DNA from: Zopfochytrium polystomum
Lineage: Eukaryota > Chytridiomycota > Chytridiomycetes > Chytridiales > Chytridiaceae
Assembly: GCA_025765615.1 (NCBI GenBank)
Contig: JAIVFJ010000144.1
Location: 62,001-126,000 of the forward strand
Length of the DNA: 64,000 bases
Reading direction: 5' to 3'
Below the pieces are notes generated by a model. The model was not told where the DNA came from. It worked only from the letters and a program-made list of their open reading frames with translations, and did not search any database. Of this stretch, positions 39,291 through 60,354 are shown piece by piece. The translations under genes and the position numbers were made by a program. Position 1 is the first letter of the stretch; every line of letters begins with the position of its first letter.

Positions 39291-39344
39291 AAAGCCCTAT
39301 CGTGAGCATTGCAGCCAGCAGTGTGCATGGTAGGGCTTTTTTTT
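39291..39344 (+). terminator. 3' hairpin, AGCCA loop (copy 1)
   Basis: AAAGCCCTATCGTGAGCATT-GC, loop AGCCA, then GCAGTGTGCATGGTAGGGCT-TT and a T run. The stem pairs along its whole length using several G-U pairs. It follows the gene ending at 39256. Confidence 0.85.
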
Positions 39345-39383
39345 ATGACAGTTATTAGAACGAGGTCACGTGAAGAGAGGAAA

Positions 39384-39422
39384 GTCTTGGCGGGGAAAAA
39401 ATTGAATTTTTATCGGACTTAG
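39384..39422 (+). promoter_or_regulatory. Class 1 promoter cassette
   Basis: TCTTGGCGG, an A run, TTGAATTTTTATCGGACTT; a CACGTGA box lies just upstream at 39368. The start codon is at 39476. Confidence 0.7.
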
Positions 39423-39475
39423 GAGGAGAGCACAGAGACCAGCGAAAGAGAAAAAGAAAGAGAAAAGAGAAAAAG

Positions 39476-40132
39476 ATGAACTGCGAATACATCATTAAGA
39501 AGGGAAAGAACAAGGGAGAAGAATGTGGAAAAAAGGAATGTAAAAAACATGAGAAAAGGGGATGGGGATGTGATGAGATATTGAAGACAGGGAAAAAGGA
39601 AGGGACAGATGTGTGGGAGAAAGGGTAAAGAGAATGGGAAATGTGGGATTCACAAAAAGTGGGGGAATCAGAAAAAGGATAGTGAAAGTGATAGTGAAAG
39701 TGAAAGTGAAACTGAAAGTGAAATTGAAACTGAAAGTGAAATTGAAAGTGAAAGGGGAAGTGGAAGTGAAGTTGATAAAAGGTTCTCGAGTCCAATCGGA
39801 GTATGTAGGAGAGTGGGAAGTCAAAGGAAGTATCGACGAGAAACTGAGATTGGAAAAAGGAAACAGGGATAAAGGTGAAGAGAGGAAAAGTGAAAGTGCC
39901 GAGAGCGGTGACGAGGATGAAGAGGGTGGAAAGGGTGTTGTGTGATTGTGGATGGAGTATGAGTAGGTGGATAGAAATGGGAAAGGGAGAAAAATGGAGG
40001 CTTGTGCAAGAAGAGATGAGGAAAACGGGAGAAAAATGTGAATGGAGATATGGTATTGCGGAAATACGAAGGAGGGTTGAAAGGAGAATGGAAGATAGAT
40101 TGGCGCGAAGTGTAAGGAGAAGAGATTAGATA
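39476..40132 (+). pseudogene. Two-module Cys/Gly/Lys-motif protein with Ser-Glu repeat, frameshifted
   Basis: ATG at 39476 gives CEYIIKKGKNKGEECGKKEC, then CDEILKTGKK. One base is missing near 39600, and the next frame gives KGQMCGRKGKENGKCGIHKK, i.e. two 'C-Y-x3-KGKxKGxxCG' modules. A (SE)n/(TE)n acidic repeat (39680-39770) and SSPIG follow. Another frame then carries YVGEWEVKGSIDEKLRLEKG, the C-terminal domain shared with the genes at 40375 and 59674. The Cys module is, from memory, common in mimivirus-like and other giant-virus genomes; zinc binding is inference. Its paralogue is at 42218-42843. Confidence 0.6.
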
Positions 40133-40178
40133 TGTGGTGAGAATGTGGTGGTGAGAGAAGAGTGAGAAAGGTGTGAAG

Positions 40179-40224
40179 AAAAAGCCCCTTAGCACTGCAG
40201 CTAGCAGTGTTAAGGGCTTTTTTC
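40179..40224 (+). terminator. 3' hairpin, AGCTA loop (copy 2)
   Basis: AAAGCCCCTTAGCACTGC, loop AGCTA, GCAGTGTTAAGGGCTTT and a T run. The stem is almost perfect. Confidence 0.85.
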
Positions 40225-40255
40225 ATGACAGAAAGTGGAACGAAGTCACGTGACT

Positions 40256-40362
40256 TTCTTGGCGGAGGAAAAACTGAATTTTGTGAGGACTTTGTGGAAA
40301 GAGGGCACATGACATAGAGGAAGGTCTTGGCGGAGGAAAAACTGAATTTTGAGAGGACTTTG
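40256..40362 (+). promoter_or_regulatory. Doubled class 1 promoter cassette
   Basis: Two copies of CTTGGCGGAGGAAAAACTGA followed by ATTTT and GAGGACTTTG, at 40257-40295 and 40326-40362. A CACGTGA box is at 40248. The start codon is at 40375. Confidence 0.75.
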
Positions 40363-40374
40363 TAGAGAGCAAAG

Positions 40375-40836
40375 ATGGGTGACTACGAGTTCAAACGAGG
40401 AGCCAAGAAAGGAACGAAGTGTGGAGTGAAGTCGCGTGACGGGAAGGAAAAGTGTAGTAAAGACAGAAAAGAGAAGAAAGGAGGGAAGGGAGAAGAGAAA
40501 GGAATGGTGAAGGTGATGAAGAAAGAGGAGGTGAAAGTGATGAAGTTTCCGATGGAGATAGTGGGGATGATAATGAGATATGTGGGAGAAGTAAAGTGGA
40601 GTATAGAAGAGAAGTTGAAGTGGGAAAGGGAGACAGGAATAAAATTGGAAAGGGGAAGAGTGAAGGTGAAAGAAGAAGTGAAGGAAAGTATAAGGTGGAA
40701 GAGTTGGTCGATGAGGAGAGAAGGGATGGCAGCAATATGGGAAGAAAGGGATGGTAAAGAGATAAATATGACAGTGAGGGGGATGAAGTGTGTGAAACTG
40801 ATAGAAGAGGTAGGAAGGAGATTGAGAGGGTGGTAA
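40375..40836 (+). CDS. Cys-motif / F-box-like small viral protein, 153 residues
   Basis: N-terminal module YEFKRGAKKGTKCGVKSRDG with KCSKDR (the first Cys of the module is Gly here: MGDYE versus MCDYE in paralogues, and the final His is Asp). A lysine-rich linker precedes KFPMEIVGMIMRYVGEVKWS, an F-box-like 'P-EI--I--YV' stretch, and EEKLKWERETGIKLERGRVK. Intact frame, own promoter cassette and 3' hairpin. Paralogues lie at 40974, 57212, 59264 and 59674. Loss of Cys and His suggests that metal binding is impaired in this copy. A link to ubiquitin ligases through the F-box-like part is only a guess. Confidence 0.7.
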   Translation: MGDYEFKRGAKKGTKCGVKSRDGKEKCSKDRKEKKGGKGEEKGMVKVMKKEEVKVMKFPMEIVGMIMRYVGEVKWSIEEKLKWERETGIKLERGRVKVKEEVKESIRWKSWSMRREGMAAIWEERDGKEINMTVRGMKCVKLIEEVGRRLRGW

Positions 40837-40860
40837 GAGCAGAGTGAGAAAGGTGAGAAG

Positions 40861-40903
40861 AAAAGCCCTTAGCGCTGCAGCCAGCAGTGTTAAGGGCTTT
40901 TTT
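40861..40903 (+). terminator. 3' hairpin, AGCCA loop (copy 3)
   Basis: AAAGCCCTTAGCGCTGC, loop AGCCA, GCAGTGTTAAGGGCTTT and a T run, 25 bases after the stop of the gene ending at 40836. Confidence 0.85.
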
Positions 40904-40922
40904 ATGCCACTAAATTGAATTT

Positions 40923-40962
40923 TCTTGGCAGAGAAGAAAATGAATTTTGTGAGGACTTGTGT
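40923..40962 (+). promoter_or_regulatory. Class 1 promoter cassette
   Basis: TCTTGGCAGAGAAGAAAATG followed by AATTTTGTGAGGACTTG, twelve bases before ATG 40974. No CACGTGA box in this copy. Confidence 0.65.
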
Positions 40963-40973
40963 GAGGGCAAAGG

Positions 40974-41330
40974 ATGTGTGACTACGAGTTTAAGAAAGGA
41001 ATACGTAAAGGACAAGTGTGTGGAGTAAAGTCGAGAGATGGGTTGGAAAAGTGTGCGAGACACAGGGAGAAGAAAAAGGAGGGAAAAGAGGAGATGGGAA
41101 AGTTGCCAATGGAGATAAAGATGTTGGTGATGAGTTTCGTGAAGTGGAAAGAAGTGAGAGGAAGTGTTGAAGAGAAACTGAGATTTGAGAAAGAGACAGG
41201 ATTGAGAATGAAGAGAGGAAAGGTGGAGGAGACAGAGAACGTAAAGAGATGTGTGAAGGAGAAAGGAATGGTGTACAGATTGTATAAAGACGATGAAGAA
41301 ACAGTGTTAGAAATATTGGGATGGAATTGA
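40974..41330 (+). CDS. Cys-motif / F-box-like small viral protein, 118 residues
   Basis: Complete consensus module: MCDYEFKKGIRKGQVCGVKS, then RDGLEKCARH, giving C-x(13)-C ... C-x2-H as likely metal ligands. A short Lys linker follows, then KLPMEIKMLVMSFVKWKEVR (F-box-like) and GSVEEKLRFEKETGLRMKRG. It ends ETVLEILGWN. Intact frame with promoter and hairpin. It is the shortest complete representative and useful as the family reference. Confidence 0.75.
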   Translation: MCDYEFKKGIRKGQVCGVKSRDGLEKCARHREKKKEGKEEMGKLPMEIKMLVMSFVKWKEVRGSVEEKLRFEKETGLRMKRGKVEETENVKRCVKEKGMVYRLYKDDEETVLEILGWN

Positions 41331-41342
41331 GAAAAAGAAAGA

Positions 41343-41386
41343 GAAAGCTCTTAGCGCTGCAGCCAGCAGTGTTAGGGGCTTTTTTA
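41343..41386 (+). terminator. 3' hairpin, AGCCA loop (copy 4)
   Basis: AAAGCTCTTAGCGCTGC, loop AGCCA, GCAGTGTTAGGGGCTTT and a T run. GCTC opposite GGGGC keeps pairing by G-U. Confidence 0.8.
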
Positions 41387-41446
41387 ATGACAGTAAGTAG
41401 AACGAGGTCATGTGAAGATATGTGAAGGTCACGTGAAGGTCTTGGC

Positions 41447-41530
41447 GGAAATATGTTGGTGGAAATATGTGAAGGGTTACGTGACAGAGGTCTTGGCGGA
41501 AAAGAAATTGAATTTTGTGCGGATTTTGGT
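41447..41530 (+). promoter_or_regulatory. Doubled class 1 promoter cassette
   Basis: A partial GTCTTGGCGG (41449-41458) and a full TCTTGGCGGAAAAGAAATTG with AATTTTGTGCGGATTTTG (41491-41528). CACGTGA is at 41430. ATG at 41545. Confidence 0.7.
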
Positions 41531-41544
41531 GAAGAGTGCAAAAG

Positions 41545-41989
41545 ATGTGCGACTACAAGTTCAAACGAGGAAAGAAGAAGGGAACCGTGTGTGGAGTGAA
41601 GTCGAGAGATGGAAGAGAAAAACGTGCGAAACACAGAGAGGTGGAGAGAGAAGAATGTTATGTATGTTACGGGACCTTAAAGATGAGAGAGGAGAATGTA
41701 AAGACGCATTGTTGTGGACACAGCGGACACAAAAAGTGTTACAAAGAATGGATGAAACATGGAGAGAGAGGTGGATATTGTGGAAGTGCAGAAGGAAGCA
41801 GATGGAGTAGAAGAAAAAGTGATGTGTGAGTTAGTGGAGCTAGGAGAGAAAGCGAAAAAAATAGCGGGATATGTGGAGTGGAGCTCAAAAAGAATGAACC
41901 CACCGCTAAACAAAGGAGAACTGCAATTAGGAAAAAAGAATTGGGAAAATATTTTAAGAACAGACCATTCAACAAACAAAAAGTGGTAA
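41545..41989 (+). pseudogene. Cys-motif plus RING-like protein, frameshifted
   Basis: N-terminal module CDYKFKRGKKKGTVCGVKSR, then a RING-like region CYVCYGTLKMREENVKTHCC, GHSGHKKCYKEWMKHGERGG and YCG. The spacing C-x2-C ... C-x-H/C-x2-H-x2-C ... C fits a RING-type zinc finger with the last ligand pair damaged. A one-base shift near 41800 links it to a helical C-terminal part ending at 41989 (KIAGYVEWSSKRMN). A RING domain would suggest E3 ubiquitin-ligase activity; with the F-box-like relatives next door this hints at a viral ubiquitin-related set. Inference only. Confidence 0.55.
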
Positions 41990-42033
41990 ATATAATAGAG
42001 AGAGCGATAAATTGAAAGTGCGTTGGTGTGAAA

Positions 42034-42090
42034 AAAAGCCCTATCGTGAGCATTGCAGCCAGCAGTGTCCATGGTAGGGCTTTTTTTTAT
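42034..42090 (+). terminator. 3' hairpin, AGCCA loop (copy 5)
   Basis: AAAGCCCTATCGTGAGCATT-GC, loop AGCCA, GCAGTGTCCATGGTAGGGCT-TT and a T run. Nearly the same as copy 1. Confidence 0.85.
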
Positions 42091-42131
42091 GACAGTGATG
42101 AGAACGAGGTCACGTGACAAAGGCATGGAAA

Positions 42132-42170
42132 TTCTTGGCGGGAAAAAAATTGAATTTTGTGAGGACTTTG
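42132..42170 (+). promoter_or_regulatory. Class 1 promoter cassette
   Basis: TTCTTGGCGGGAAAAAAATT followed by GAATTTTGTGAGGACTTTG. CACGTGA is at 42112. ATG at 42218. Confidence 0.75.
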
Positions 42171-42217
42171 GTGGAGAGCACAGAGAACAGCGGAAGAGAA
42201 AAAGAACGAGAAAAAAG

Positions 42218-42843
42218 ATGAACTGTGAATACATGATTACGAAGGGAAAGAACAAGGGACAAGAATGTTGAAAAAAAACTGTAAAAAACATGAGAAAGGA
42301 TGTGATGAGATATTGAAGACAGGAAAAAGGAAGGGACAGATGTGTGGGAGAAAGGGTAAAGAGAATGGGAAATGTGGGATTCACAAAAAGTGGGGGGTTC
42401 AGAAAAAGTAAAGTGAAATTGAAACTGAAAGTGAAAGTGAAAGTGAAACTGAAAGTGAAAGTGAAATTGGAAGTGAAATTGAAAGAGGTAGGGGAAGTGG
42501 AAGTGAAGTTGATGAAAGGTTCTCGAGTCCAATAGGATGGGTAGATCCGATGAAAGTGCCACTAGGGAAAATAATAAACCATTACCAGACGGTACTTGAT
42601 GATGATGATGACCCAGTGTGGAGATTGATGAAGGGGTTATCAGAGGAAGTATTAAAGAAGAAACTAGGAGATCCGGGAAAGGAGCCACTAGGATCGGAAT
42701 CTGAGACGTATCAAGTGACATATGACAAAAAGATGGGAAAACACAAGTGGGAATACAGAGGAATAAATATATATGAAAATTCAAGGATATATCCAGGAGC
42801 CATGACCAAAGAAGAATACGAGGATAAATGGCGAGGGAAATGA
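42218..42843 (+). pseudogene. Paralogue of the two-module Ser-Glu protein, two nonsense changes
   Basis: CEYMITKGKNKGQEC is followed by an in-frame TGA, then CDEILKTGKRKGQMCGRKGK with KCGIHKKWG. A TAA interrupts just before the acidic (SE/TE)n repeat (42410-42490). After it comes an intact tail: SSPIGWVDPMKVPLGKIINH, DDDDDPVWRLMKGLSEEVLK, YQVTYDKKMGKHKWEYRGIN, ending DKWRGK. The tail differs entirely from that of the 39.5-kb paralogue, so the two share the N-terminal half only. That points to recombination between modules at the Ser-Glu repeat. Confidence 0.6.
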
Positions 42844-42864
42844 GTAAGAAGAGAGAAGGTACGA

Positions 42865-42909
42865 GAAAGCCCATAGCGCTGCAGCCAGCAGTGTTGTGGG
42901 CTTTTTTTT
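42865..42909 (+). terminator. 3' hairpin, AGCCA loop (copy 6)
   Basis: AAAGCCCATAGCGCTGC, loop AGCCA, GCAGTGTTGTGGGCTTT and a T run. CCCATA opposite TGTGGG versus CCCTTA opposite TAAGGG in copy 3 is a compensatory change. Confidence 0.85.
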
Positions 42910-42945
42910 ATGCCAGTTTTTAGGATGAGATCACGTGACTTCGGG

Positions 42946-43000
42946 TGGTATGGGAATGGGCGGGGGAAGAGTAAAGAAGATCTTAAATAAAAAATAAAAG
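42946..43000 (+). promoter_or_regulatory. Class 2 upstream element (GGGAATGGGCG)
   Basis: GGTATGGGAATGGGCGGGGG, AGTAAAGAAGATCTT, AAATAAAA; ATG 43010 follows. Compare 38194-38235 and 60392-60405. Confidence 0.6.
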
Positions 43001-43009
43001 AAGAGAGAA

Positions 43010-43872
43010 ATGATAACAGCCAAAGAAATAAGAGAATTATACGATCCAATCATTTATATAAAAGAATTAGATGAATGGTATATGTACGATAAATATACAG
43101 GAATATACGTAAAACATGAACTGAACTATATAAGAGACTTTCCAGAAATATACAGTGAATATGATGAGAAAACATTTAGAAAAATATTAAGAAACTCTTC
43201 GAAAATAATAGAAGAATTAGCTGAATTATGTAAAGGAAGTGTATATGATCTCGACAAACACAAGCATATTATAGGTTTCAAAAATGGTGCATATGATATT
43301 TCAAAAAAAGAATTCAGAAAAGGAAAAATAGAAGAAAAAGTGTCATTAACGTGTGGTATAGAGTTTGATATCCAAATGTAGAAACAGAAACTGCAAACAA
43401 ATTTTTAGAGCAAACGTATGGAGTAAATAAAGATAAAGCGAAAAAATGTTTAGCTGAAACATTGATTGGATCTAAGCATAGTATAGTGATTCATCATGGT
43501 AATGAAATGAGAATTGAAACTGTATGTGATCTACTAGAAAAAATGTTTGGAGATTATCAATCGCAAATTGGATATTTGTTCTTTGTAGGCAGTGCAGTGA
43601 TTTCAGAAAAACAGAAGCGAGCTCTCGAGAATCAATATAGATTAGTGTATTTCTTTGCAGAAAATGGAGACACAATATTCTCACAAAGAATGAAAGAATG
43701 GTCAGATGTCAAGTGTGCAGTACATGTATTTGCAGAACAGAAACCATTATTTGATACGACCCCACCAGAATATGTTCATACTTTAGAAGTGAATGGGAGA
43801 GGAAGTGGAAACGTAGATGACAAATTAATGAAAGGTTTGATAAACATTCTCATACATGAGGTTTGTAAGTAA
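43010..43872 (+). pseudogene. D5-like helicase paralogue without Walker A, one frameshift
   Basis: The first part (43010-43381) ends with HIIGFKNGAYDISKKEFRKG, the 'FKNGAYDL---FR' signature of D5_N domains. A one-base slip near 43381 leads into TANKFLEQTYGVNKDKAKKC, then LAETLIGSKHSIVIHHGNEM and RIETVCDLLEKMFGDYQSQI. In active SF3 helicases the IHHGNEMRIETV position is occupied by G-x4-GKS/T. Here no Gly-Lys-Ser remains, although the following helix and 'FGDY' are kept. VHVFAEQKPLFDTTP matches the 'ACN-LP' sensor region weakly. Read as a helicase paralogue with a dead ATPase site. A worse copy lies at 4866-5345. Confidence 0.6.
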
Positions 43873-43998
43873 AACAAAATGTTCAATAGATTTCGAGTCA
43901 AACGACAAAATGTGATTGAATATGTTTGTTGAAGTTCTCATGTACATTTATGGTCCGAAATGTGTATGAGAATTTTATAAATATAAGAATGAAAATTG

Positions 43999-44226
43999 TT
44001 AGTCGAGAAGTTGTGAGAGTTGTGGGAGTTGCTGGTCAGACTGCTGTTGTTTTTTGCGATAATAATTTCGTGAAGCTTTTTCACGCATTTTTTCAGGATG
44101 CTTGATAGCGTAAAGAATATTGCTGACATTTTTTGGATTTTCTTTTTTAAGTTTGTCGCTTTTAACGAGGAGATACAGCCATACTAAATCAGTCTTTGAT
44201 AAAGAGTTTACAAATTTTGAATCCAT
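43999..44226 (-). CDS. Small 'YAIK-YYRKKQQQ' protein, 75 residues
   Basis: Intact: MDSKFVNSLSKTDLVWLYLL, then LKKENPKNVSNILYAIKHPE, KMREKASRNYYRKKQQQSDQ and a PQLSQLL tail. Helical and basic at the end, with a Gln-rich tail. It is one of at least five copies (6438, 43999, ~44300, 44703, 51837), three of them in tandem here upstream of, and divergent from, the primase-helicase gene. Unknown family; the basic Tyr/Arg/Lys stretch would suit nucleic-acid binding. Confidence 0.6.
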   Translation of the reverse strand: MDSKFVNSLSKTDLVWLYLLVKSDKLKKENPKNVSNILYAIKHPEKMREKASRNYYRKKQQQSDQQLPQLSQLLD

Positions 44227-44299
44227 TCTTGCAATAAATCGAGAAGAAATTGTTTTAAATTAGCGCGATTCCAATTCAAACGTTTCGTTATGGTCAGAA

Positions 44300-44512
44300 A
44301 CTAGTTGTGGCAACCGTTGATCAAGTTGCTCCTATAATATTTGATAGAATCTTGTCGAGCCTTTTCTGGATGGCGAATGTTATAAAACAAATGTTTACAG
44401 AATTGGGATTATCTGATTTTAGTTTGTTGAACTCATCATTAACAGCAAGATAAAGTCTCTGTTTTTGAGAGATTTTTTACTTGATCTTGTAAAGGAAACT
44501 GTGACATATTAC
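44300..44512 (-). pseudogene. Decayed copy of the small 'YAIK-YYRKK' family
   Basis: Minus-strand pieces such as LYLAVNDEFNKLKSDNP and a degenerate 'IRHPEKARQDSIKYY' block lie between the two better copies. The frame is broken in several places. Confidence 0.45.
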
Positions 44513-44702
44513 TACAATAAAAACAGAAGAATTTGTTTTAAATTAGCGCGTAACAAAATGAGCAATGGATTCCAAGTCAAACGACAAAATGCTATTGATT
44601 ATGTTAGTTGATAATCTCATGTACATTTGTGGTAGGAAAGCACATGAGAATTCTGTTGACAATTGTGACAATATTTGTAAACAGAATATAAAAATATCAA
44701 AC

Positions 44703-44945
44703 ACAGTCGAGAAGTTGTGGTAGTTGTTGGTCAGGATTTTGTTGTTGCTTTTTGCGATTATAATAGCGAGAAGACATCTCCCGAATTTTATCAGGGCGTT
44801 TGATGGCATAGAGAAGATGATGGACAGTATTTGGATTTTCAGATTTTAAATGGGCGAATTCTTCATTAGTAGCAAGATAAAGTCGTATAAAATCTGTTTT
44901 TGAAAGTGTTTTACGTGTTCTTTAAGAGGATATGAGTCCATATTT
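44703..44945 (-). pseudogene. Third tandem copy of the small 'YAIK-YYRKK' family
   Basis: Encodes LKSENPNTVHHLLYAIKRPD, KIREMSSRYYNRKKQQQNPD and a QLPQLLDCV end. Its start (MDSYPLKEHVK) is in a different frame, caused by a base slip near 44910. Best match of the left-hand copy at 6438-6640. Confidence 0.55.
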
Positions 44946-45036
44946 ATTACATTATAGAGAGAAGAAATTGTTTTAAAAAAAAAGCACGTAAGAAAGTGAA
45001 TTTTATTTCTCATCCATAAATAAAACGAGAAATAAG

Positions 45037-47267
45037 TATGACACGAACTAACTTGGATGAAATGAGAGGAAAGGCACATGAAAAAGGATGGATATATTAC
45101 GGTATAAACATTTGGCGCGAGAATGGGGAAAAGAGAACAGGGGCAAGACCAGAGAAATGGCAATATTAAGAATCTTCAACGTTTAACAATCAAACAAATA
45201 TTTCAATTTTGACTGGAAATAAGAGCAAATTAATTGTGGTGGATCTGGATAAAAAAGATGAAGCATACACTGCAAAAAAGTGGTTTGAGGAAAACATTAG
45301 ACCTTTGAATGAAGAAGAAACTCTCATAACTGAAACAGGATCAAAAGGGCATCACATATATTATGAATATGATGAGAGAGTAAAAAATGTAAATAAAAAA
45401 GAGAAGCACATAGACATTTTGACAGATAAACATTGTTGTTATGAAGGGACTGGTTACAAAACAATAACGGACAAACAAATAAGGAGGCTATCAGATTTAG
45501 AAATAGAAAAATTAAGTTCTTTACATACAAATCAAAATCAAATCAAAAATCAGTCAGGTTCAGGATCAAGGAAATTAAAAAAGGGTGAAACAAAAAGTAA
45601 ACAAAATATTAAATAAACACGTACTGGAGGAGGAGTGGGACTTAGAAATGGGAGAAAATACTAAATTAACAACAAGAGGAAGACAATGCATAGTACAACC
45701 AGATATTGATCACGGAAAGATAGGTCACAGCTGCGTATATATCAATGAAAATGGTATTGGTTTTAAGAACTGTTTCAGTCATGGATCTGTCCAAATGAGA
45801 CAGGAAGATACCAGTCAATTAATGGGAGTACTTCAAGTGACATTAAGGAAAGAAGAAGATGATATTTATAACTTACTTGTTGGAAACATTCAAGAATGTG
45901 CCAGAAAGGAAAAGTATAGAAAAATGGAGGGGACAGGTGCTGTGTACAAAAGAAAACGGGCATTTGCTTATGAACTATTCATTGAAAAACCGGAAAAGTT
46001 TCTGAATACAATTTTGAGAGGAAACCCAATGTGGTTGAGCAATGCTTACAACATTCAAAAATTGTCTCTATACATGACCAAATATGACGATCATAACTTC
46101 CCATACTTAGAGACGGACGAAGCTTGGTATGGTTTCAAGAATGGAATATATAATATAGAAACATGTGAATTCGTAGAAATACCTGAAGGTTGTGATGATG
46201 TGGAGGAAGAATACATATGTGAGGAGAAATTAGGAGAAAAAGTTGTAAGGAAATATTTTGACATCAATTTCAGAAAAACTTTGAATACAGAAAATTTCGA
46301 CAAAGTACTTAAATATCAATTCAATGATGAGGTTGTTGAGTTCATTTATGCAATGATTGGAAGAATGTTTGGTATAAGGGACAAGTGGGATGTTATGTTA
46401 TATTTGTTGGGAGAAAGTGGTTGTGGAAAAAGTGTTGTTCTAGATGTTGTAAGAAGCTTTTTTGACAAAGTTGGAAATATAAATGATACATTTGAAGACA
46501 AATTTGGATTGGGGTATATTAAGGACAAAGACATTGTAATTAGTGACGATTAACCCAAGGAAATACATTGATTCTTACCACAACAGACATTTCAGTCTAT
46601 GGTTTCTGGGGGGAGTATGTCTTGTGCAATAAAGAACGGAGATGCAGTGGACTTTGTATGGAAAACACCATTGATGTTTGCAAGTAATTACATGATCAGT
46701 TATACAGATATGGGGCAAATTAGCAGACGTGTGATGGTTGCACAGTTTGAAAACATTGTTAGACAGAAAGACACATCGTTGATTGATAGAATTAGAAAAG
46801 AAGAACTAGATGCAATATTGTACAAGTCCACATTGTTGTACAAAAAATGGGCGGAGCGTGTAGGAAATAAAAGCATATGGGATGTGGCACCTTCTTATTT
46901 CATTGAAAAGCAAGAGGATCTTAGAACAGAAAGAAATCCGTTTTTCAAGTATGTCAAAATACATTATGTCTACGATGAGAATTCTGCATTGAGACTGAAA
47001 GACATTAAGTCACATTATGAGAGGGACACCACAAAAAAATCAGGTCAAAATTGTAAAGGAAGTATCCTGGCATGTGATAGTAGATATCAGCAATTAAAAA
47101 AACTAATATGCAAAGATTGCAGGAAGGATCATAAACGAGGATGTTGTGAACAATACGGGAGTAAGAATTATACGTCGGAAGATGTGATTAAAGGGATAAA
47201 AGTTAGAGAAACATTGCTTAATGGTCTTTCTATATTTTCTATATTTTTCTATAAACTTTATTTGTGA
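45037..47267 (+). pseudogene. AEP primase-D5 helicase fusion (replicative primase-helicase), 3-4 frame breaks
   Basis: ATG at 45037 gives MTRTNLDEMRGKAHEKGWIY and YGINIWRENG. After a break near 45165 comes the AEP core: LIVVDLDKKDEA (metal-binding hDhD), TETGSKGHHIYYEY and HIDILTDKHCCYEGTGY. A second break near 45600 leads to the D5_N part (WYGFKNGIYNIET) and the SF3 helicase: Walker A GESGCGKS at 46410-46433, Walker B-like KDKDIVISDD. A third break at 46551 leads to FVWKTPLMFASN (motif C, N as sensor), ISRRVMVAQFEN (Arg finger) and a Cys/His cluster CKDCRKDHKRGCCEQY. In DNA viruses this enzyme primes and unwinds at the fork. Catalytic residues survive, so the breaks look recent. The left copy is at 6890-7755 plus 12638-13120. 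Confidence 0.85.
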
Positions 47268-47279
47268 CCATGGAGAAAA

Positions 47280-47575: not shown

Positions 47576-47579
47576 TAGA

Positions 47580-52908: not shown

Positions 52909-53044
52909 GGGATGAGTGCTTGGCGACATACGATAAATATGAAAGTCCAGAAAGAGAAGATTATAAGTTTACCAGAGTGCATGGGAAATAAAATAAGAAT
53001 TTTTTGAAAAGTTTTTGATATAGATTAATTTTGCGATAAGGATT

Positions 53045-53401: not shown

Positions 53402-56113
53402 AAATGAACACTAAAGGATTGAACAAGTGTTGAAATACAAAGGTCCTATAATTAATAAAGAAGGAAAGAATATTACAGAACTATACATGAGAACTTGAGA
53501 AATTGCAAAGGGAAAACAAAAGTGAAATATTCATATGGAAAAGAATCAAGTGGAAAAGAATCAAGTGGAAAACATAAAGATTATGGAAGACTTTATGCAG
53601 ATAAAGGCTACCAAAACATGTCAAAAAAGTAAGGAATTATATAATGAATGAAATGTACATAGATATTGATATAAAAAATTGTCAACCAGTACTGTTACAT
53701 CAATTAATGAAGGAACAAATAGAAAAGCAAAGTGAACTCCTAAAGAATTATGTAGAGAATAGAGAAGTAGTCTTGAAAAAGTATGGATTTGATAAACAAG
53801 GGTTTCTGTCCATTATATATGATGAAGAATGTTTCATTGAAAATGAGGACATACAAAAATGCATAGATTAATATATGGAAAAGGAGGATCGGTAAGATCA
53901 ATATTAAGTGATGGTGATGAAAAATATACTAAAATAATGTCAGACGTAAATAAAAATAAAGTAAAAAATAGAAAGGGATCATTTTTAGCAAACGTTTTGC
54001 AAGATATTGAAAATCAAATATTGATGGTAATGTATAAAAAGTTCAAGGAAATGGATCTAGAAATAGGAACATTAATGTTTGACGGGCTGACAATTGAGAA
54101 GAATAGTGCAAGGGATAAAACATGGATGAATTACTCTTGGAAGTAGAGAGAACAGTGAAAAAAGAAACTGGTTATGAAATAAAATTAGTAGAAAAGCCAA
54201 TGGAAGAGAAATGGACTCCAGAAACTGAAACTGAAGATACAGATGAAGTAAATGAGGAAATGAAGACTTATGTAAAAGAGACATTGGGTGACACAATAGA
54301 TGAGATTCAAAAAATTACTAGGGATGATGGTGAAGTTGAATTAAGAGCCAGAATGACAGATTCTTCTTACTTTTATGGATCATTCAAAAAGTGTGAGAAT
54401 GGATGTGAGAGTCATCATGTTATGATGAGCAATGGATATCATGCAGAATGTGTAAAGTGTTGTATGAAGATTCCTGAAAATACATCATTAATAATTCCAG
54501 CAAAGTTCAATATATTGAATCAATACTTTGGGATAAATATGTCTGTGACAATAAACAACTACAATATTGTGGGGTCAGATTCTATAGAAAACGTGGAAAT
54601 TGATGATAATTTTTTTGAAGATAAGAAGATAAGAAAGTATTTAAAAGAAATAATAAAAAGTCAAAAAAAAATCATATATAGCAAGATTATTTCATCATAT
54701 TTATCCAAATATAGTATACAGTGATAAAAAATGGTATGTATGGGAGTCAGAAACCAGAATATGGTGTTTGGATGATGAGGGTATTATATCAAGTTTCAAT
54801 ATTATGAATTTGGAGAAAATATTTGAAAAAGTGATAGATTATTACAAAACCAAAAGAGCTGAAGAAAAGTATGGAAAATTAATATCAAATGTAAATAACA
54901 TTATAAAGAATTTAAATGAGCCAAGTTTGAAACGAGATGTTTTAACTGAAAGTAAATATTTTAAGAAAAATAGGAATTTTGCAAACTTATTAAATAGCAA
55001 TTTACATTATATTCCATTTACAAATGGATTGTATGATTTATCGACTGCAACGTTCAGACAAATACAACCAGAAGACTATATTCAAGATACTACTGGTTAT
55101 GATTTTGTAAATGGGGAGACAGGATTAGAAGCAGAAGTGTGGAATGTGATAAAGCAAATATTACCAAACGAGCGTGTAAGAGACTACATGTTACAGCATA
55201 TGAGTTATGCATTAGATGGAAAGAAACCAAATACAATATTCATGATACTAACGGGGAGTGGTTCAAATGGAAAGAGTATTTTATTAACATTGATGGAGAT
55301 GACAGTAGGAATATTTGCGGATAAAGGTCAAGTTACTCTTATGACTCGAAAGAGAGGAGATCCAAACCAAGCATCTCCTGAGCTAGTAAAATATAGAACT
55401 AAACGATTTGTATTTCTAAGTGAACCAGAAGATGGTGAGAAATTAAACATAGGACTACTGAAGGAATTGACAGGCGGCGAGTCTTTTGTTGGAAGAGAGT
55501 TATATTGTGGGTGTATAACATTTAAATTGTATGCAAAATTTTACTTGGCTTGTAACACCACGCCTCAAATTAAAGGGGAAGATGAAGCGTTATGGAGAAG
55601 AATTAGAGTTGTGAATTTTGAATCAAAATTTGTAGAAAATCCGTCAAATCCAAATGAATATAAAATAAATAAAAACTTGGAAAATGAAATGAAAGAAGAT
55701 CTTAGATGGAGGCAGACATTTATGAATATATTGATAGATTATTATAACAAAGAAGAAATACCTGAACCACCTGAAGTGTTAGGCAGAACTGATGAATATA
55801 GAATTGAGAACAGTATGAAAAAAATTGGATTAAAGAGAATATAAAAGAGTCTGAAACTGATTTTATAGACTCAAAAGAATTATGCGACTGGTACAAATTG
55901 GATAATGACCTTAAGGTATTTGGCAACCAAGATAGAGGAAAATTACGTACTGAAGTTACTAGGGTTATCAACAAAGTGTTCAAAAAAAATATAACATGTA
56001 TTACTAAGAAAATAAATGGAAAAACAAAAAGTGTTTGGGAGGGGTTTAAAATAGATGATGGTGATGGTGGTAATAATGATATTGTCGTGGATGTGGGTAT
56101 TGAGAGGTGTTAG
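53402..56113 (+). pseudogene. Second D5 primase-helicase, several frame breaks
   Basis: The N-terminal primase part is read across breaks: KVKYSYGKESSGKESSGKHK, YGRLYADKGYQNMSKKVRNY and YIDIDIKNCQPVLLHQLMKE (the 'Y-DIDI-N-HPV-L' motif). Zn-like cysteines follow (CENGCESHHV, CVKCCMKIPEN), and then D5_N IPFTNGLYDLSTATFRQ. The SF3 helicase is intact at 54768-55844: Walker A GSGSNGKS (about 55254-55277), RFVFLSEPEDGEKLN (Walker B region), FYLACNTTPQI (motif C) and EALWRRIRVVNFESKFV. A winged C-terminal piece follows to 56113. Breaks lie near 53500, 53870, 54130, 54725 and 55845. It is only distantly related to the primase-helicase at 45.0 kb, so the element had two such enzymes. Confidence 0.85.
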
Positions 56114-56430
56114 AAACGGTTAGAAAAGGGTTAGAACGGCTTTTTTTTGCAAAGTGAAAATATAGTCCATTTTTATATTAAAATTTATAAAAGGTTAGAA
56201 GGTTAGAAGGTTAGAATAATTTGAAGGTTTTTGAACTGAAGAGGGAGATAGAATATTTTTTTTCAGCCAAAAAAAAAAAAATTGCAGGTATTCTCAAGAA
56301 AAAGTGGAAAAACGTTCTAACTCTTCTGTCTTCTAACCTTTTATAAATTTTGATATAAAAATGGTCAAAGAAATGAAAAAAGAAAAAAAGTTATTCTAAC
56401 CTTCATTCTAACCTTCTAACCAACACAATA
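56113..56430. repeat. GGTTAGAA repeat cluster with long palindrome
   Basis: About a dozen GGTTAGAA / TTCTAACC words. CCATTTTTATATTAAAATTT, ATAAAAGGTTAGAAGG (56167-56215) and its near complement at 56314-56364 form an inverted repeat of about 50 bases. The region is non-coding, AT-rich and just inside the right inverted repeat; an origin or regulatory function is conceivable. Confidence 0.7.
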
Positions 56431-56439
56431 GGTTCATAT

Positions 56440-56671
56440 TAGGGGTAGTTTGTTCGACAGGTTCATATTAGAGTTAGCAAAATGTTAGAATCAGTCAGGG
56501 TTAATTTCCAAATAAGGAAATAGTTCGGAACGTCTGTTCGACGGGTTTGATCTGAAACGAGAATACCAAATAAGGAAATATTAGAGAAAAGCTAATGAAA
56601 TTTACCATAAATTAGGAAGAAAATATTGGGAAAAATATATATGAAAATTTTTTAGAAAAAAAAAACAAATA
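56440..56671. other. AT-rich non-coding stretch
   Basis: No gene. Two GTTCGAC-x2-GGTT words (about 56451 and 56533) also occur at 47586 and 51810. Confidence 0.4.
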
Positions 56672-57150
56672 ATATGTTTCATGTAAGAGCTAGTGAAATG
56701 TGACACAAATTAGAATATGATATTGAGATTAGATTTTTAGTGGTGATGTAATATACATTTCAGTTGATAAATATATATTACACATTTTATCAAATGAAAT
56801 GTAACCATAAATTAGGTTAGAAATGTTAAAAAAAGACTTTAGTTGCTGATGTAATATACTTTTCAGTTGACAAATATATATTACAACATTTATTCAAAAT
56901 ATACACCATATTTATGTCACATTATTAGAAAAGAAGACAAAAAATTAGGATTAGGGCTAAAAAAATGTCAAATAATTAGAAAAAATAACCAGAAATATGA
57001 TTAAAATACTCTAAATTCTCGCGAAACAGTCCATAAAAAACTTTAATATCAAATTTTATTTAAAAAATCTTTATATATTATATTTTGTTCTTTTTTTGGA
57101 CATTATTTCTAAAATTTTGTTTTCTTGACACTTAAAAAAAAAAGCTTTCT
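56672..57150 (-). repeat. Right inverted repeat of the 29.6-kb segment
   Basis: Reverse complement of 27552-28024: shared blocks include TTACATCACCACTAAAAATC and the AATTTGTGTCACATTTC region, the ACCATATTTATGTCACATTA region and TTGGACATTATTTCTAAAAT. It ends outward with TTGACACTT, an A run, AGCTTTCTGCGGCTTTGTAG. Confidence 0.9.
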
Positions 57151-57170
57151 GCGGCTTTGTAGTGTTCGGT

Positions 57171-57190
57171 TTTGCAGCGCTATGGGCTTT
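57171..57190 (-). terminator. Broken 3' hairpin (half copy)
   Basis: On the minus strand GAGAAAGCCCATAGCGCTGC is the left arm of the standard hairpin (as at 42865). The loop and right arm are replaced by AAAACCGAACACTACAAAGC, the tip of the inverted repeat. The junction thus cut a pre-existing hairpin. Confidence 0.75.
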
Positions 57191-57211
57191 CTCTTACATT
57201 TTTCTCTTCAC

Positions 57212-57562
57212 TCAAAACCATACTTTTCCTGCCATCACACTTCTCATTCCCACCTCTGTATTCCTAAACTCATACTCTTTGTACAAGATCACTTTATTCT
57301 CTACACACTTTCTCACTCTCACCTTTCCTTCCACCTTTCCTCTTTTCAACTCCATTCCCAGTTGTTTCTCCAAATTTATCACTTTTGCTGCATCATCTCT
57401 CACTTCTACATACTTCATTATTATTCTTACTATCTCCATTGGCATTCTTCCATACACATTCTCTTTCTTGTCTCTGTGTTTTGCACACTTTTTTCCTTCC
57501 CTCGACTTTACTCCACACACTTGTCCTTTACGTGCTCCTTTCTGTATCTCGTAGTCACACAT
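57212..57562 (-). CDS. Cys-motif / F-box-like small viral protein, 116 residues
   Basis: Start at 57562 (MCDYEIQKGARKGQVCGVKS), chosen because the promoter lies directly upstream and paralogues start MCDYE; an upstream ATG four codons earlier also exists. KKCAKH completes the metal-binding pattern. RMPMEIVRIIMKYVEVRDDA is the F-box-like stretch, followed by KVINLEKQLGMELKRGKVEG. Intact frame ending MAGKVWF. It has lost the normal 3' hairpin, since the inverted-repeat junction cuts it. Confidence 0.7.
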   Translation of the reverse strand: MCDYEIQKGARKGQVCGVKSREGKKCAKHRDKKENVYGRMPMEIVRIIMKYVEVRDDAAKVINLEKQLGMELKRGKVEGKVRVRKCVENKVILYKEYEFRNTEVGMRSVMAGKVWF

Positions 57563-57579
57563 CCTTAACTCCACCCACC

Positions 57580-57612
57580 AAGTTCCTCACAAAATTCACT
57601 TTTTTCTCCGCC
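57580..57612 (-). promoter_or_regulatory. Class 1 promoter cassette
   Basis: Minus strand: CTCGGCGGAGAAAAAAGTGA, ATTTTGTGAGGAACTTG, about 20 bases before ATG 57562. Confidence 0.7.
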
Positions 57613-58054
57613 GAGAATTCATTTCTTTTTCAATTCCTTTGTTTTTTCTTTCCACACATATTCTATCTTTTTCTCTAACTTCTTGGATTAATGTTTTATC
57701 AGTTGTCACAACTATGTCATCAACGTAATTTAACGTCACACAATCATCCCAATTATTCCAGTATTTTATCGCCAATTCATGTATCGTTACAGTATCCATT
57801 CTCACTAATATTTCTTCTTCGTGGTCCTTACGCTCCAATATTTCACATTTTTGACCCTTTCTTTTCCCGTTCTTCAGTATGTGTTTGCATTTTTTACTCT
57901 CATATTCTTCAATCCATGATTCATATGCTTCCACCAATTGTGGTACATTCTTCATTTTTCCCTTCACTTTCATTATTTTTTCCATATTTTCTTTGGTGTA
58001 TTCCAATTCAAGTTTCCACTTCCCATTTTCTTTTTTCACTTGGTAAACAAACAT
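57596..58054 (-). CDS. Hypothetical viral protein with one Cys-Lys-Gly module, 152 residues
   Basis: MFVYQVKKENGKWKLELEYT, a charged helical part, then CKHILKNGKRKGQKCEILER, a Cys module of the same type as in the 39.5-kb proteins, in a central position. Then LAIKYWNNWDDCVTLNYVDD and a basic end (MNSRRRKK). Intact frame. The end overlaps the promoter of the next gene on the same strand. Function unknown. Confidence 0.6.
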   Translation of the reverse strand: MFVYQVKKENGKWKLELEYTKENMEKIMKVKGKMKNVPQLVEAYESWIEEYESKKCKHILKNGKRKGQKCEILERKDHEEEILVRMDTVTIHELAIKYWNNWDDCVTLNYVDDIVVTTDKTLIQEVREKDRICVERKNKGIEKEMNSRRRKK

Positions 58055-58077
58055 TCTTCCTTCTGTTCAAGTCTTTC

Positions 58078-58116
58078 AAACTCCTCTCAAAATTCAGTTT
58101 TTTTCCACCCCAAAAC
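58078..58116 (-). promoter_or_regulatory. Class 1 promoter cassette
   Basis: Minus strand: GGGTGGAAAAAAACTGAATT, TTGAGAGGAGTTTG, then ATG 58054. The TTGGCGG word is degenerate here. Confidence 0.6.
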
Positions 58117-58124
58117 CTCTGTCA

Positions 58125-58172
58125 TAAAAAAAAGCCCCTAACACTGCTGGCTACAGTGCTAAGGGCTTTTTC
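58125..58172 (-). terminator. 3' hairpin, AGCCA loop (copy 7)
   Basis: Minus strand: AAAGCCCTTAGCACTGT, loop AGCCA, GCAGTGTTAGGGGCTTT and a T run. It follows the gene ending at 58187. Confidence 0.85.
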
Positions 58173-58186
58173 TCCACAACCTCACT

Positions 58187-58642
58187 TCAATTCACCACTG
58201 TCCTTGGATTCCACTTTCCGTGACACGTTCCCCTTAGTGAATACTCTTTACTGTATCCATTCATCTCCTTATAATCCTTGAAGGACATTGTACCAATTTT
58301 TCTCGACAATTCAAGAACTTTTCTTTCTGAATTTTCTTCAATTTTCCACGTGTTTCTCCTCTTGTTTTTCCCATCTGTTCCTACTATTTCAAATATCTCC
58401 ATTTTATCCTCATTCTGTATCACAAATGCAAAGTAATCCCCCACTTCTGCTCGGTTCCAACGTGTGTCATCCCAACATGCAACCCTTCCTTCTTTTATTT
58501 CTTCCATCTCACGATAATAATCCTCCTTTGCCAGTTTCCCATTTTCTGTTGATGGTTTTCCAGTATTCACCGGTGTTAATATCACCTTTTCCACTCTCTT
58601 GTTCCTTTTTACTTTTATTTCTATTTTCTCCTCTTCTTTCAC
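58187..58642 (-). CDS. Hypothetical viral protein with PUA/EVE-like segment, ~151 residues
   Basis: After a Lys/Glu-rich start comes CWDDTRWNRAEVGDYFAFVI, then KMEIFEIVGTDGKNKRRNTW and RKVLELSRKIGTMSFKDYKE, ending GTCHGKWNPRTVV. The pattern 'GD-FAF----------EIFEI-------R---W-----R-VL-LS' resembles small PUA/ASCH-like domains found in giant viruses, which bind modified nucleotides; this match is tentative. The true start is unclear: an ATG lies upstream at about 58677 but one base out of frame across an A run, so either a GTG-like start or a homopolymer slip is involved. Confidence 0.5.
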   Translation of the reverse strand: MKEEEKIEIKVKRNKRVEKVILTPVNTGKPSTENGKLAKEDYYREMEEIKEGRVACWDDTRWNRAEVGDYFAFVIQNEDKMEIFEIVGTDGKNKRRNTWKIEENSERKVLELSRKIGTMSFKDYKEMNGYSKEYSLRGTCHGKWNPRTVVN

Positions 58643-58689
58643 TTCTTTTTTCCTCTTTTTTTTCTTCCATTTTTGTTATGAATCACCCT

Positions 58690-58772
58690 CTGGGACCTTC
58701 TGGAACCTTCTGGAACATTCTAGAACATTCCTTCATGGAACCTTGTGGAACCTTCTGGAACCTTCTTTAGTA
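58690..58772. repeat. GGAACCTTCT decamer array resembling heat-shock elements
   Basis: CTTCTGGAACCTTCTGGAAC, ATTCTAGAACATTCCTTC, ATGGAACCTTGTGGAACC, TTCTGGAACCTTC. Alternating nGAAn and nTTCn pentamers, the binding pattern of heat-shock factor, continue through most of the array. It sits directly upstream of the minus-strand gene at 58642. Confidence 0.75.
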
Positions 58773-59125
58773 TAGATGAGAAGTTGAAGTGGGAAAGGGA
58801 GACGGGAATAAAACTGGAAAGGGGAAGAGTGGAGGTGAAAGAAGAAGTGAAGGAAAATATAGGGAGCATGAATGGGACGATAAGGGGTGAATTGGGGGCA
58901 GTGCTTCTATGGAAAAAAGAGGGAGGAATAATACTAAGTATGATAGTGAACTGTAATAAACGGATGGATGTGATAAGAATGGAAGGAGAGGAGGAGTATG
59001 AGTGGGAGTTCAAATTGATGGGGTGGTCTATATATGGGATGAGAGAAAGGAGAAGCGATGAAGGAGTGGGAGAAGAGAGTGGAGGAGTGGGAAGAGTGGA
59101 TCAGCGAGTGGCAATAAGAGACAAG
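58772..59125 (+). pseudogene. 5'-truncated copy of the Cys/F-box-like family
   Basis: It opens abruptly after the decamer array with SIDEKLKWERETGIKLERGR and VEVKEEVKENIG, matching residues after the F-box-like part of the 59674 protein. Then come WKKEGGIILSMIVNCN, KRMDVIRMEGEEEYEWEFKL and a diverged end. The N-terminal Cys module is gone. It retains its 3' hairpin. Confidence 0.6.
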
Positions 59126-59133
59126 AAACCAGA

Positions 59134-59184
59134 GAAAGCCCATCAAGGTAGCGCTGCAGCCAGCAGTGTTGTGGGCTTTTTTTA
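59134..59184 (+). terminator. 3' hairpin, AGCCA loop (copy 8)
   Basis: AAAGCCCATCAAGGTAGCGC-TGC, loop AGCCA, GCAGTGTTGTGGGCTTT and a T run. A six-base insertion bulges the left arm. Confidence 0.75.
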
Positions 59185-59195
59185 TGAAGGTAGAA

Positions 59196-59240
59196 GGTCA
59201 CGTGACTTGGAGAAAAAGTGAATTTTGTGAGGACTTTGAG
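59196..59240 (+). promoter_or_regulatory. Class 1 promoter cassette
   Basis: CACGTGACTTGGAGAAAAAG, TGAATTTTGTGAGGACTTTG; the GCGG word is missing. ATG at 59264. Confidence 0.7.
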
Positions 59241-59263
59241 AGGAGAGTGCGAAGGAGCGAAAA

Positions 59264-59554
59264 ATGATACAGAGAACGCCAAATGAAATTGTGGACATGA
59301 TATTTGAGTATATAAAACCAGGAGACATAAAAGGAAGCATTGATGAAATATTAAAATTGGAAAAAGAAATAAACAGATACTTTGGAAGAATGAAAGTAAC
59401 GCTGAGAATAAACATGAAGAAAAGGAAGGGATTGAAGAATATAAAAGTGAATGGAAAGATGCGTAGAATAACATTTACGATAAGGGGGAAAGTATTGTCA
59501 AGGTGGGATGGATCATTGGATCCAAGTTATACAGTAAAGCCAAAATACAATTAA
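59264..59554 (+). CDS. F-box-like small viral protein without Cys module, 96 residues
   Basis: RTPNEIVDMIFEYIKPGDIK followed by GSIDEILKLEKEINRYFGRM corresponds to the second domain of the family. The N-terminal Cys module present in paralogues is absent, so the protein begins almost at the F-box-like stretch. The C-terminal half (KVNGKMRRITFTIRGKVLSR) is beta-rich and ends VKPKYN. Intact, with its own promoter but no recognisable AGCCA hairpin before the next cassette. Confidence 0.65.
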   Translation: MIQRTPNEIVDMIFEYIKPGDIKGSIDEILKLEKEINRYFGRMKVTLRINMKKRKGLKNIKVNGKMRRITFTIRGKVLSRWDGSLDPSYTVKPKYN

Positions 59555-59611
59555 ATATGTTAGCCCGAGTGGCATGAGGTGGAGTAAGAAATGGGAAAAA
59601 AGATGGTGTAG

Positions 59612-59650
59612 GAGGTCATGGCGGAGGAAAACTGAATTTTGTGAGGGCTT
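59612..59650 (+). promoter_or_regulatory. Class 1 promoter cassette
   Basis: GTCATGGCGGAGGAAAACTG, AATTTTGTGAGGGCTTAA; ATG at 59674. Confidence 0.7.
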
Positions 59651-59673
59651 AATCGAAAAGCATCGGATAGGAA

Positions 59674-60279
59674 ATGTGTGACTACGAATGCGTGAAAGGA
59701 GCGAAGAAAGGAACAGTGTGTGGAGTAAAGTCGAGGGATGGAATGGAAAAATGTAGTAAACACAGAAAAGAAGGGAAGGGAGAGGAGAAGAAGGTGAAGG
59801 TGATGAAGGTGATAAAGAAGGAGATGAAAGTAGTGATGAAGTTCCCAATGGAGATAGTGGGGATGATAATGAGATATGTGGGAGAAGTGAAAGGGAGTAT
59901 AGATGAGAAGTTGAAGTGGGAAAGGGAGACGGGAATAAAACTGGAAAGGGGAAGAGTGGAGGTGAATGAAGAAGTGAAGAAAAATATAAGAAATGGTGAA
60001 ACATGGGAAAAAAAGGGGGGAATAATGATAAGTTTGACAGTGAAATGTGAGAAATGTAAGAGAAGTAAGAGATGGATGGTGGAATGTAGAGAGTATAGTA
60101 AACGGATGGATGTGATAAGAATGGAAGGAGAGGAGGAGTATGAGAGGGAGTACAAATTGATGGTGTGGACAGGTTTGGGGTGGGGTCCAAAACGAGAGGA
60201 AGGAGAGGATGAGAAGGAATGGAGGAAGCGAGTGAGAGTGTGGCAAGACTGGTTCAGCGAGACATTTCTTTTTATCTAG
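59674..60279 (+). CDS. Cys-motif / F-box-like viral protein, 201 residues
   Basis: The longest intact member. MCDYECVKGAKKGTVCGVKS, RDGMEKCSKH (complete ligand set), a Lys linker, KFPMEIVGMIMRYVGEVKGS and IDEKLKWERETGIKLERGRV. After EVNEEVKKNIRNGETWEKKG comes a beta-rich tail, LTVKCEKCKRSKRWMVECRE with a C-x2-C pair, then YEREYKLMVWTGLGWG and a basic end, RVWQDWFSETFLFI. Promoter and 3' hairpin are present, so it is the best candidate of the module for an expressed gene. Confidence 0.75.
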   Translation: MCDYECVKGAKKGTVCGVKSRDGMEKCSKHRKEGKGEEKKVKVMKVIKKEMKVVMKFPMEIVGMIMRYVGEVKGSIDEKLKWERETGIKLERGRVEVNEEVKKNIRNGETWEKKGGIMISLTVKCEKCKRSKRWMVECREYSKRMDVIRMEGEEEYEREYKLMVWTGLGWGPKREEGEDEKEWRKRVRVWQDWFSETFLFI

Positions 60280-60311
60280 GAAACGATCGAAATAAGAGAA
60301 AAATGTGAGAT

Positions 60312-60354
60312 AAAGCCCATAGCGCTGCAGCCAGCAGTGTTGTGGGCTTTTTTT
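60312..60354 (+). terminator. 3' hairpin, AGCCA loop (copy 9)
   Basis: AAAGCCCATAGCGCTGC, loop AGCCA, GCAGTGTTGTGGGCTTT and a T run. Same as copy 6. Confidence 0.85.

Follow-up and report, generated by a model that had tools for sequence, protein, structure and literature searches.

We analysed a window of 64,000 nucleotides from the genome of the chytrid Zopfochytrium polystomum (bases 62001-126000 of contig C144; assembly of 80.16 Mb in 761 contigs), in which a hairpin with the loop AGCCA (AGCTA in one copy) and a following T run occurs nine times, and further copies of which are spread over the genome. The hairpin is probably a signal in the 3' untranslated region (3'-UTR) which determines where the transcript of the short viral gene upstream of it ends, and which serves one class of genes. 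Place, strand, structure and U-tract together find their simplest explanation in such a transcript 3'-end signal. The element can be described in three parts, namely an apex fixed in its letters, a lower stem fixed in its shape and a U-tract, and comparison of the copied sequences gives good support to the view that the sense RNA has been under selection for structure.

Nine hairpins in the window and copies across the genome

A preliminary description of the window had reported nine hairpins, written as AAAGCCC...GC-AGC(C/T)A-GC...GGGCTTT and followed by a run of T, and had quoted compensating stems that include G-U pairs. All nine hairpins were present, with starts shifted by 0-6 nt, and the quoted stems were real. 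A covariance model (R1) was built from 40 alleles of the hairpin, some window copies being among them, and gave E values of 1e-20 to 6.9e-7 for all nine when the whole window was searched with filters off; for each copy the gene's strand outscored the opposite one. The copies are as follows, with distances counted from the stop of the upstream open reading frame (ORF).

39291..39339, + strand: AGCCA hairpin of the long type (AAAGCCCTATCGTGAGC...); R1 E 5.4e-7; z -9.3 with flanks; 34 nt past the stop of ORF 38714-39256
40181..40220, + strand: AGCTA-loop hairpin; R1 E 2.3e-16
40862..40900, + strand: AGCCA hairpin; R1 E 1e-20; z -8.7; 25 nt past the stop of ORF 40375-40836
41344..41382, + strand: AGCCA hairpin; R1 E 5e-19; 13 nt past the stop of ORF 40974-41330
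42035..42083, + strand: AGCCA hairpin of the long type; R1 E 6.9e-7; repeat D13; 96% identity to the 39291 copy over 83 nt
42866..42904, + strand: AGCCA hairpin; R1 E 2.1e-20; z -7.9; 22 nt past the stop of ORF 42550-42843
58131..58169, - strand: AGCCA hairpin; R1 E 5.8e-18; z -7.4; 17 nt past ORF 58187-58507 (- strand)
59135..59179, + strand: AGCCA hairpin with six additional bases in the 5' arm; R1 E 1.5e-12
60312..60350, + strand: AGCCA hairpin; R1 E 2.1e-20; z -7.1; 32 nt past the stop of ORF 59674-60279

Eight of the nine copies have the loop AGCCA and the one at 40181 has AGCTA, and a T-G pair closes the loop of the 58131 copy. Five copies folded with short flanks reached -30.4 to -37.3 kcal/mol (z -7.1 to -9.3), and none of 200 shuffles was equally stable; the loop had five bases (AGCCA) in these five, and likewise in sites picked by the base of the stem. 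For all nine copies the sense strand folded better than the antisense strand. The core TGCAGCCAGCA was found 11 times in the window when one mismatch at most was allowed, as compared to 0.96 expected, and none of 100 shuffles reached 11; two of these occurrences (9776 and 61879) lie outside the nine hairpins. A tenth hairpin at 49455-49490 has the base AAAGCCCT/AGGGCTTT in common with the nine and a different loop (R1 E 3e-5).

In the whole genome, the pattern AAAGC-N8..20-GCAGCNAGC-N8..20-GCTTTTT had 61 forward and 48 reverse matches (109 together, at least two sites, on C309 and C374, being counted double), and the reversed pattern had none. The shuffles and this reversed-pattern control rule out a chance origin. 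Copy numbers depend on the assembly and refer to copies among the matches listed. The main sample was drawn from 33 loci with 293,063 bases; to enter it, a site needed 14 or more of 17 pairs around GC-N5-GC together with one of four accepted loops. This yielded 120 sites (AGCCA 116, AGCTA 2, ATCCA 1, AAACA 1), with six GC-N5-GC stems of unrelated loops and 93 antisense readings set aside; the criteria favor paired copies and miss the window copies 59135 and 58131. With the apical core as the sole criterion there were 123 sites, 118 of which had at least 14 pairs. Selection on the stem base only (AAAGC-N29-GCTTTTT, apex free) gave 113 readings, 17 antisense and 96 sense. Three of the 123 sites, L027 (C147:143845), L062 (C292:35737) and L068 (C421:24603), look chimeric, the 5' arm matching one type and the 3' arm a different one, and pair poorly without gaps.

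Structure, sequence and place of the element

The preliminary description had proposed selection on RNA structure, to be judged by a covariation test, and a location at the 3' ends of genes, and the larger sample bore out both proposals. The 111 regular copies represent 40 alleles. Paired cells made up 95.6%, a percentage that the selection of the 120 sites inflates, and cells changed on both sides numbered 38, as compared to 9.2 in shuffles. The covariation score was 0.237 against 0.154 in shuffled alignments, none of 500 being as high, and slid structures scored 0.091 at most. This two-sided variation lies mainly in three base pairs (columns 6/34, 8/32 and 9/31); most of the remaining variable pairs show chiefly G-U variation. 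On a tree for which only the 3' flank was used, paired columns changed on the same branch 21 times, as compared to a null mean of 7.6 and a maximum of 14 in 1000 trials (2-10 for slid partners); Fitch reconstruction of the changes is rough with such short flanks, and the copies are related.

The strand on which selection acted can be read from one-sided changes. Among those that started from Watson-Crick pairs, 34 led to G-U and 6 to A-C (p 8.4e-6; 32 and 5 with duplicates removed). Because a strandless DNA palindrome would yield both equally, the excess of G-U argues for the RNA strand. The basal pairs of sites chosen on the apical core alone include 240 G-U and 20 A-C among 1353 cells. Variants seen at least twice kept the pair in 23 of 30 changes and singletons in 21 of 42; the greater share of broken pairs among singletons fits relaxed selection after integration, and is not a strong test of it. 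The selection itself would have acted mostly before integration.

The apex is conserved in its letters. The exact 14-nt apex TGCAGCCAGCAGTG occurs in 90 of the 96 sense sites chosen on the stem base, and the other six differ by 1-3 letters. Only 6 of the 149 changes in the 120 sites fall in the 14 apical columns, partly by construction, as four of these columns were required by the selection; the 96 sites chosen on the stem base give the unbiased figure. Compared pairwise, the copies are 88-89% identical in the arms and 98% in the loop, and in 5043 pairs of copies whose flanks both match at less than 60% the hairpins are still 89% identical on average.

The place of the hairpin was examined in the 109 copies with at least 400 nt of upstream sequence. 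In 67 of them the hairpin starts 0-60 nt past the stop of an ORF with 80 aa or more, as compared to 7.5% for random positions on the same loci and strands; 57 of the 67 lie 13-26 nt from the stop, the median being 20. An antisense ORF stops on the opposite side in 19 of the 109, and two hairpins lie within a sense ORF. The proteins encoded upstream fall into five groups at E 1e-6, with 47, 15, 3, 1 and 1 members. On the 3' side, the relaxed motif AAANTGAATTTT lies within 260 nt of 69 of the 120 hairpins (17% of random stretches), and AAAATTGA within the same distance of 32 (8% of random stretches). With an ORF upstream of the hairpin and a putative promoter motif downstream of it, the repeated unit would consist of promoter, short gene and hairpin. 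A T run follows in 116 of the 120 copies, with a length of six or more when the T that close the stem are included; it has exactly eight T in 76, which is the mode. In the window the units include the following features, together with a tract of viral character that encloses them.

38200..60950 (approximate, borders not base-exact), no strand: viral insert with lower GC, strong GC skew and viral-type genes
40375..40836, + strand: member of the short-gene family with a zinc-binding-like N-terminus and an F-box-like 'PMEIV' by eye (ORF, family alignment; no Pfam match at E 0.01)
40974..41330, + strand: member of the short-gene family, 118 aa, 69% identity to a Zopfochytrium polystomum protein
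42550..42843, + strand: short copy of the second short-gene family (ORF, family comparison)
59674..60279, + strand: member of the short-gene family, 201 aa (ORF, family alignment)
40257..40301, + strand: promoter-like repeat with AAANTGAATTTT (repeat family D3; eight repeat copies in the insert, from 39385 to 59615)

Other hairpins are also present. A set of 54,601 bases taken from outside the arrays held four hairpins (stem at least 12, loop 3-10), three of them within 150 nt past an ORF stop, and a larger-looped hairpin was noted besides at 53069. A long two-part hairpin at about 53045-53123, with a AAAGCTTTC base and an inner GGTTTTGTAGTG stem, lies 3' of an ORF that is nuclease-like by eye, and a partial inverted copy of it is located 4 kb away at 57118-57173. 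A second hairpin type (CTCATGTACATTT...AAATGTGTATGAG) occurs on two contigs (window 43930-43977 and L016:2063-2110), within 150 nt past an ORF stop.

The mechanism that we propose starts from an RNA stem of at least 17 bp which would be capped by AGCCA and run into about eight U. Stem and U-tract would most likely halt a virus-derived RNA polymerase or fix a cleavage site, much as proposed for yeast virus-like elements. For the near-invariant apical part (UGC-AGCCA-GCAGUG) a reader protein is probable, and it might be an enzyme of the RNase III type or one that binds stem-loops. Such a signal would mark arrays of short genes with a AAAATTGA-like promoter, derived from a Nucleocytoviricota-related virus whose remnants are scattered in the chytrid genome. 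A more far-reaching version, which is possible and which we offer tentatively, is a bipartite 3'-end code of an undescribed fungus-infecting giant virus. The covarying lower stem and the U-tract would stop transcription, and the invariant apex would be bound by a dedicated viral or host protein, so that the hairpin, in the manner of the histone stem-loop, would coordinate a class of genes apart from the core genes.

Evidence against a 3'-end signal and alternative explanations

Several observations weigh against the reading as a 3'-end signal. For 42 of the 109 hairpins, the 0-60 nt upstream contain no stop of an ORF with 80 aa or more; these may be decayed copies or have no link to a gene. 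None of 11 helicase-like ORFs has an AGCYA core within 200 nt past its stop; with replication genes lacking it, the hairpin was not the sole 3'-end signal of the virus. The 3' flank is conserved, with 74% and 73% identity in the first two 20-nt steps and 45% by 80-100 nt, so the shared history of the copies extends past the hairpin. The criteria of the main sample (GC-N5-GC, 14 or more pairs out of 17) inflated the percentage of paired cells among the 120 sites and fixed four apical columns, and five of the 123 sites chosen on the apical core fail the pairing cut-off, being bulged or chimeric. Two of five covariation measures were unexceptional, namely the number of two-sided pairs (5, reached by 37 of 500 shuffles) and of pair types (16, reached by 134 of 500), and the co-change count depends on the rough reconstruction mentioned above. 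Recurrent variants also break pairs, in 7 of 30 changes, as do 21 of 42 singleton changes.

The conserved 3' flank leads to the best of the alternatives, namely that the repeat is kept mainly by recent duplication and gene conversion of cassettes, and that the palindrome has no RNA role. Copies do lie in arrays of related short genes, with gene order alike on contigs C75 and C118, and 74% identity in the first 20 nt of the 3' flank would suit this explanation. So would the behavior of hairpin alleles, which follow the upstream gene: the allele is identical in 59% of 230 pairs that share the left side, in 30% of 37 that share the right side and in 10% of the 5043 that share neither. On the 5', coding side, however, ungapped identity drops from 39-57% in the adjacent 20 nt to 28-33% beyond, and the arms still agree at 88-89%. 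Copying alone, moreover, would not predict compensatory changes or the bias of G-U over A-C, and we consider this explanation unlikely.

A role at the DNA level appears very unlikely. The hairpin would then act in recombination, as a site at the cassette end which folds when the DNA is single-stranded, like integron attC, or it would be a palindrome-driven hot spot of rearrangement. The arrays of gene plus hairpin agree with such a role, as do the chimeric-looking sites (three of the 123, by eye) and the half hairpin at 57173, whose apex runs into another inverted repeat. The 39291 copy also shares its long-type hairpin and its downstream side with the 42035 copy, but follows a different gene. 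On the other hand, the T tract and the sense placement past stops suit a transcript signal, array order is largely preserved between C75 and C118, and the allele of either arm tracks the upstream gene more than the downstream side. Integron attC sites have core-site boxes and a cognate integrase, and the test of alleles in flank pairs does not favor the comparison with them. That junction is at 57118-57208 of the window: half of an AGCCA hairpin meets, at its apex, the 53087-53142 repeat in inverted form (repeats I4 and I11), as if broken at the tip.

Least probable of all is that U5NU (TTTTTNT), the poxvirus-type termination signal, acts here and that the stem merely protects the 3' end: TTTTTNT does occur within 55 nt beyond the loop in 113 of the 120 copies, but any run of at least seven T includes it automatically, and the covariation and the fixed apex would be left without a role in termination.

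Known 3'-end hairpins and the viral setting

The likely function as a 3'-end signal invites comparison with other systems, and two of them concern the apex. The 3' stem-loop of histone mRNAs, which is bound by SLBP, is a 3'-end element conserved in sequence and belonging to a single class of genes, as is the present hairpin, which differs in its longer stem, pentaloop and U-tract. Substrates of Rnt1p carry a four-base AGNN tetraloop, in contrast to the five-base loop found here. From the fixed pentaloop, the preliminary description had proposed a dedicated binding protein or enzyme. A near-fixed loop within a 14-nt tip (90 of 96) fits a factor that reads the loop, but the enzyme part of the proposal did not find a candidate: RNase III matches in the genome were tandem-domain, Dicer-like loci of host-like GC on C1, C30 and C615 and one weaker match on C19, and no viral RNase III was seen in the genome. 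A search for the poly(A) polymerase PF19244 gave zero matches, and its control was also silent.

The same description had likened the hairpins to the mimivirus rule of 3'-end formation, and the likeness holds in part. Mimivirus and Megavirus 3' hairpins are processed by RNase III (R343) with the viral poly(A) polymerase, and are reported as unconserved in sequence and defined by shape (PMC4402537). By the mimivirus rule, the RNase III is a virus-encoded tandem enzyme, and poly(A) is added within the hairpin. Shared with that system are the hairpin after the stop and nucleocytovirus-like genes nearby, and the AAAATTGA motif is a candidate counterpart of its early promoter (PMC4402537). The hairpin follows straight after the stop in array genes (67 of 109, median 20 nt), but it is not a feature of most genes of the virus, as it is lacking from all 11 helicase-like ORFs. 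Unlike in mimivirus, where nucleotide conservation is described as absent (PMC4402537), letters and loop are conserved here (arms 88-89%, apex 90 of 96) and a T tract follows. The closer resemblance is to the yeast cytoplasmic virus-like elements pGKL1/2, whose 3' stem loops with a U-tract have been proposed to act in intrinsic termination (PMC6211774), and that to the giant-virus RNase III hairpins is looser. In both pGKL and the chytrid a stem loop lies near the stop (median 26 nt there and 20 nt here) and is followed by a U-tract in a fungal cell; in contrast, the 15 genes of pGKL are without a common motif, and their median of -7.5 kcal/mol compares with -30 to -37 for five copies here (PMC6211774). 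A stable stem followed by a U-tract is present, as in intrinsic terminators of the bacterial or yeast virus-like element type, which would halt the polymerase with no further factors. Palindromes concentrated past stop codons or ORFs have been described in Marseilleviridae (PMC5413956) and Bodo saltans virus (PMC5871332), where they are reported for many genes of the genome and where the available excerpts mention no conserved loop; the excerpt on medusavirus reports that no such hairpins were found (PMC8557863).

A free giant virus as the source of the window was ruled out by the assembly and by matches to host proteins, and the sequence is endogenous in the fungal genome. The insert encodes a D12 methyltransferase, a D5_N helicase and a Prim-Pol. 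D5_N matched at 67 places on 38 contigs of the fungal genome, a copy number that suggests a large past invasion, and 41 of these places sit on 20 of the 23 contigs listed with hairpins. VLTF3, a nucleocytovirus hallmark, was found on contig C340 (E 3.8e-32), which also holds two hairpins about 35 kb from it, preceded by sequence of higher GC. In an alignment search, the helicase had its best IMG/VR relatives at 46-49% identity. Taken together, the GC drop with viral-type genes, the overlap of D5_N and hairpin contigs, VLTF3 and these relatives suggest that the elements are most likely what is left of a Nucleocytoviricota-related virus, scattered and decaying. Capsid_NCLDV had a single match, on C206, outside the contigs with listed hairpins, and a search of the genome for the A32 packaging gene gave no match; the Capsid_N search had zero matches and its control was equally silent. 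Presumed host genes were also seen near viral stretches, including one with WD40 repeats just beyond the GC rise on C99 (L018:4851-8297) and one at 14964-16142 of the window, some 22 kb away from the insert, which combines NPHP3_N with a weak match to NACHT. An ORF of 254 aa at L026:1994-2758 is Fanzor/TnpB-like by eye and had no Pfam match at E 0.01.

In the collections searched (the protein database, viral_contigs and 23 IMG/VR loci), the hairpin was not found outside this genome. The 23 IMG/VR loci, which carry a related helicase, gave six weak matches (best E 0.68), and two pattern scans of viral_contigs did not find the hairpin; a single match in viral_contigs, from a separate search, lay in a contig of bacterial appearance and was discounted as chance. 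In viral_contigs, neither the short-gene alignment nor VLTF3 had a relative, and a single helicase sequence as query found none, but its alignment did find some. No tRNA or known Rfam family matched, one of the Rfam searches being limited to 39000-43000. The bibliographic entries of literature naming the host do not mention these hairpins. Remnants of a large DNA virus are also found in another fungus, Rhizophagus irregularis, whose genome has an endogenous giant virus region; hairpins are not mentioned in the excerpt of that report, and its 2023 abstract states that a double-stranded DNA virus infecting fungi was then not known (PMC10640383).

A fixed tip on covarying stems in one gene class suggests that 3' hairpins can be recognized in a sequence-specific manner, and it makes a search for the reader protein possible. 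For the chytrid, the hairpin provides an RNA-level signature of a DNA virus lineage.

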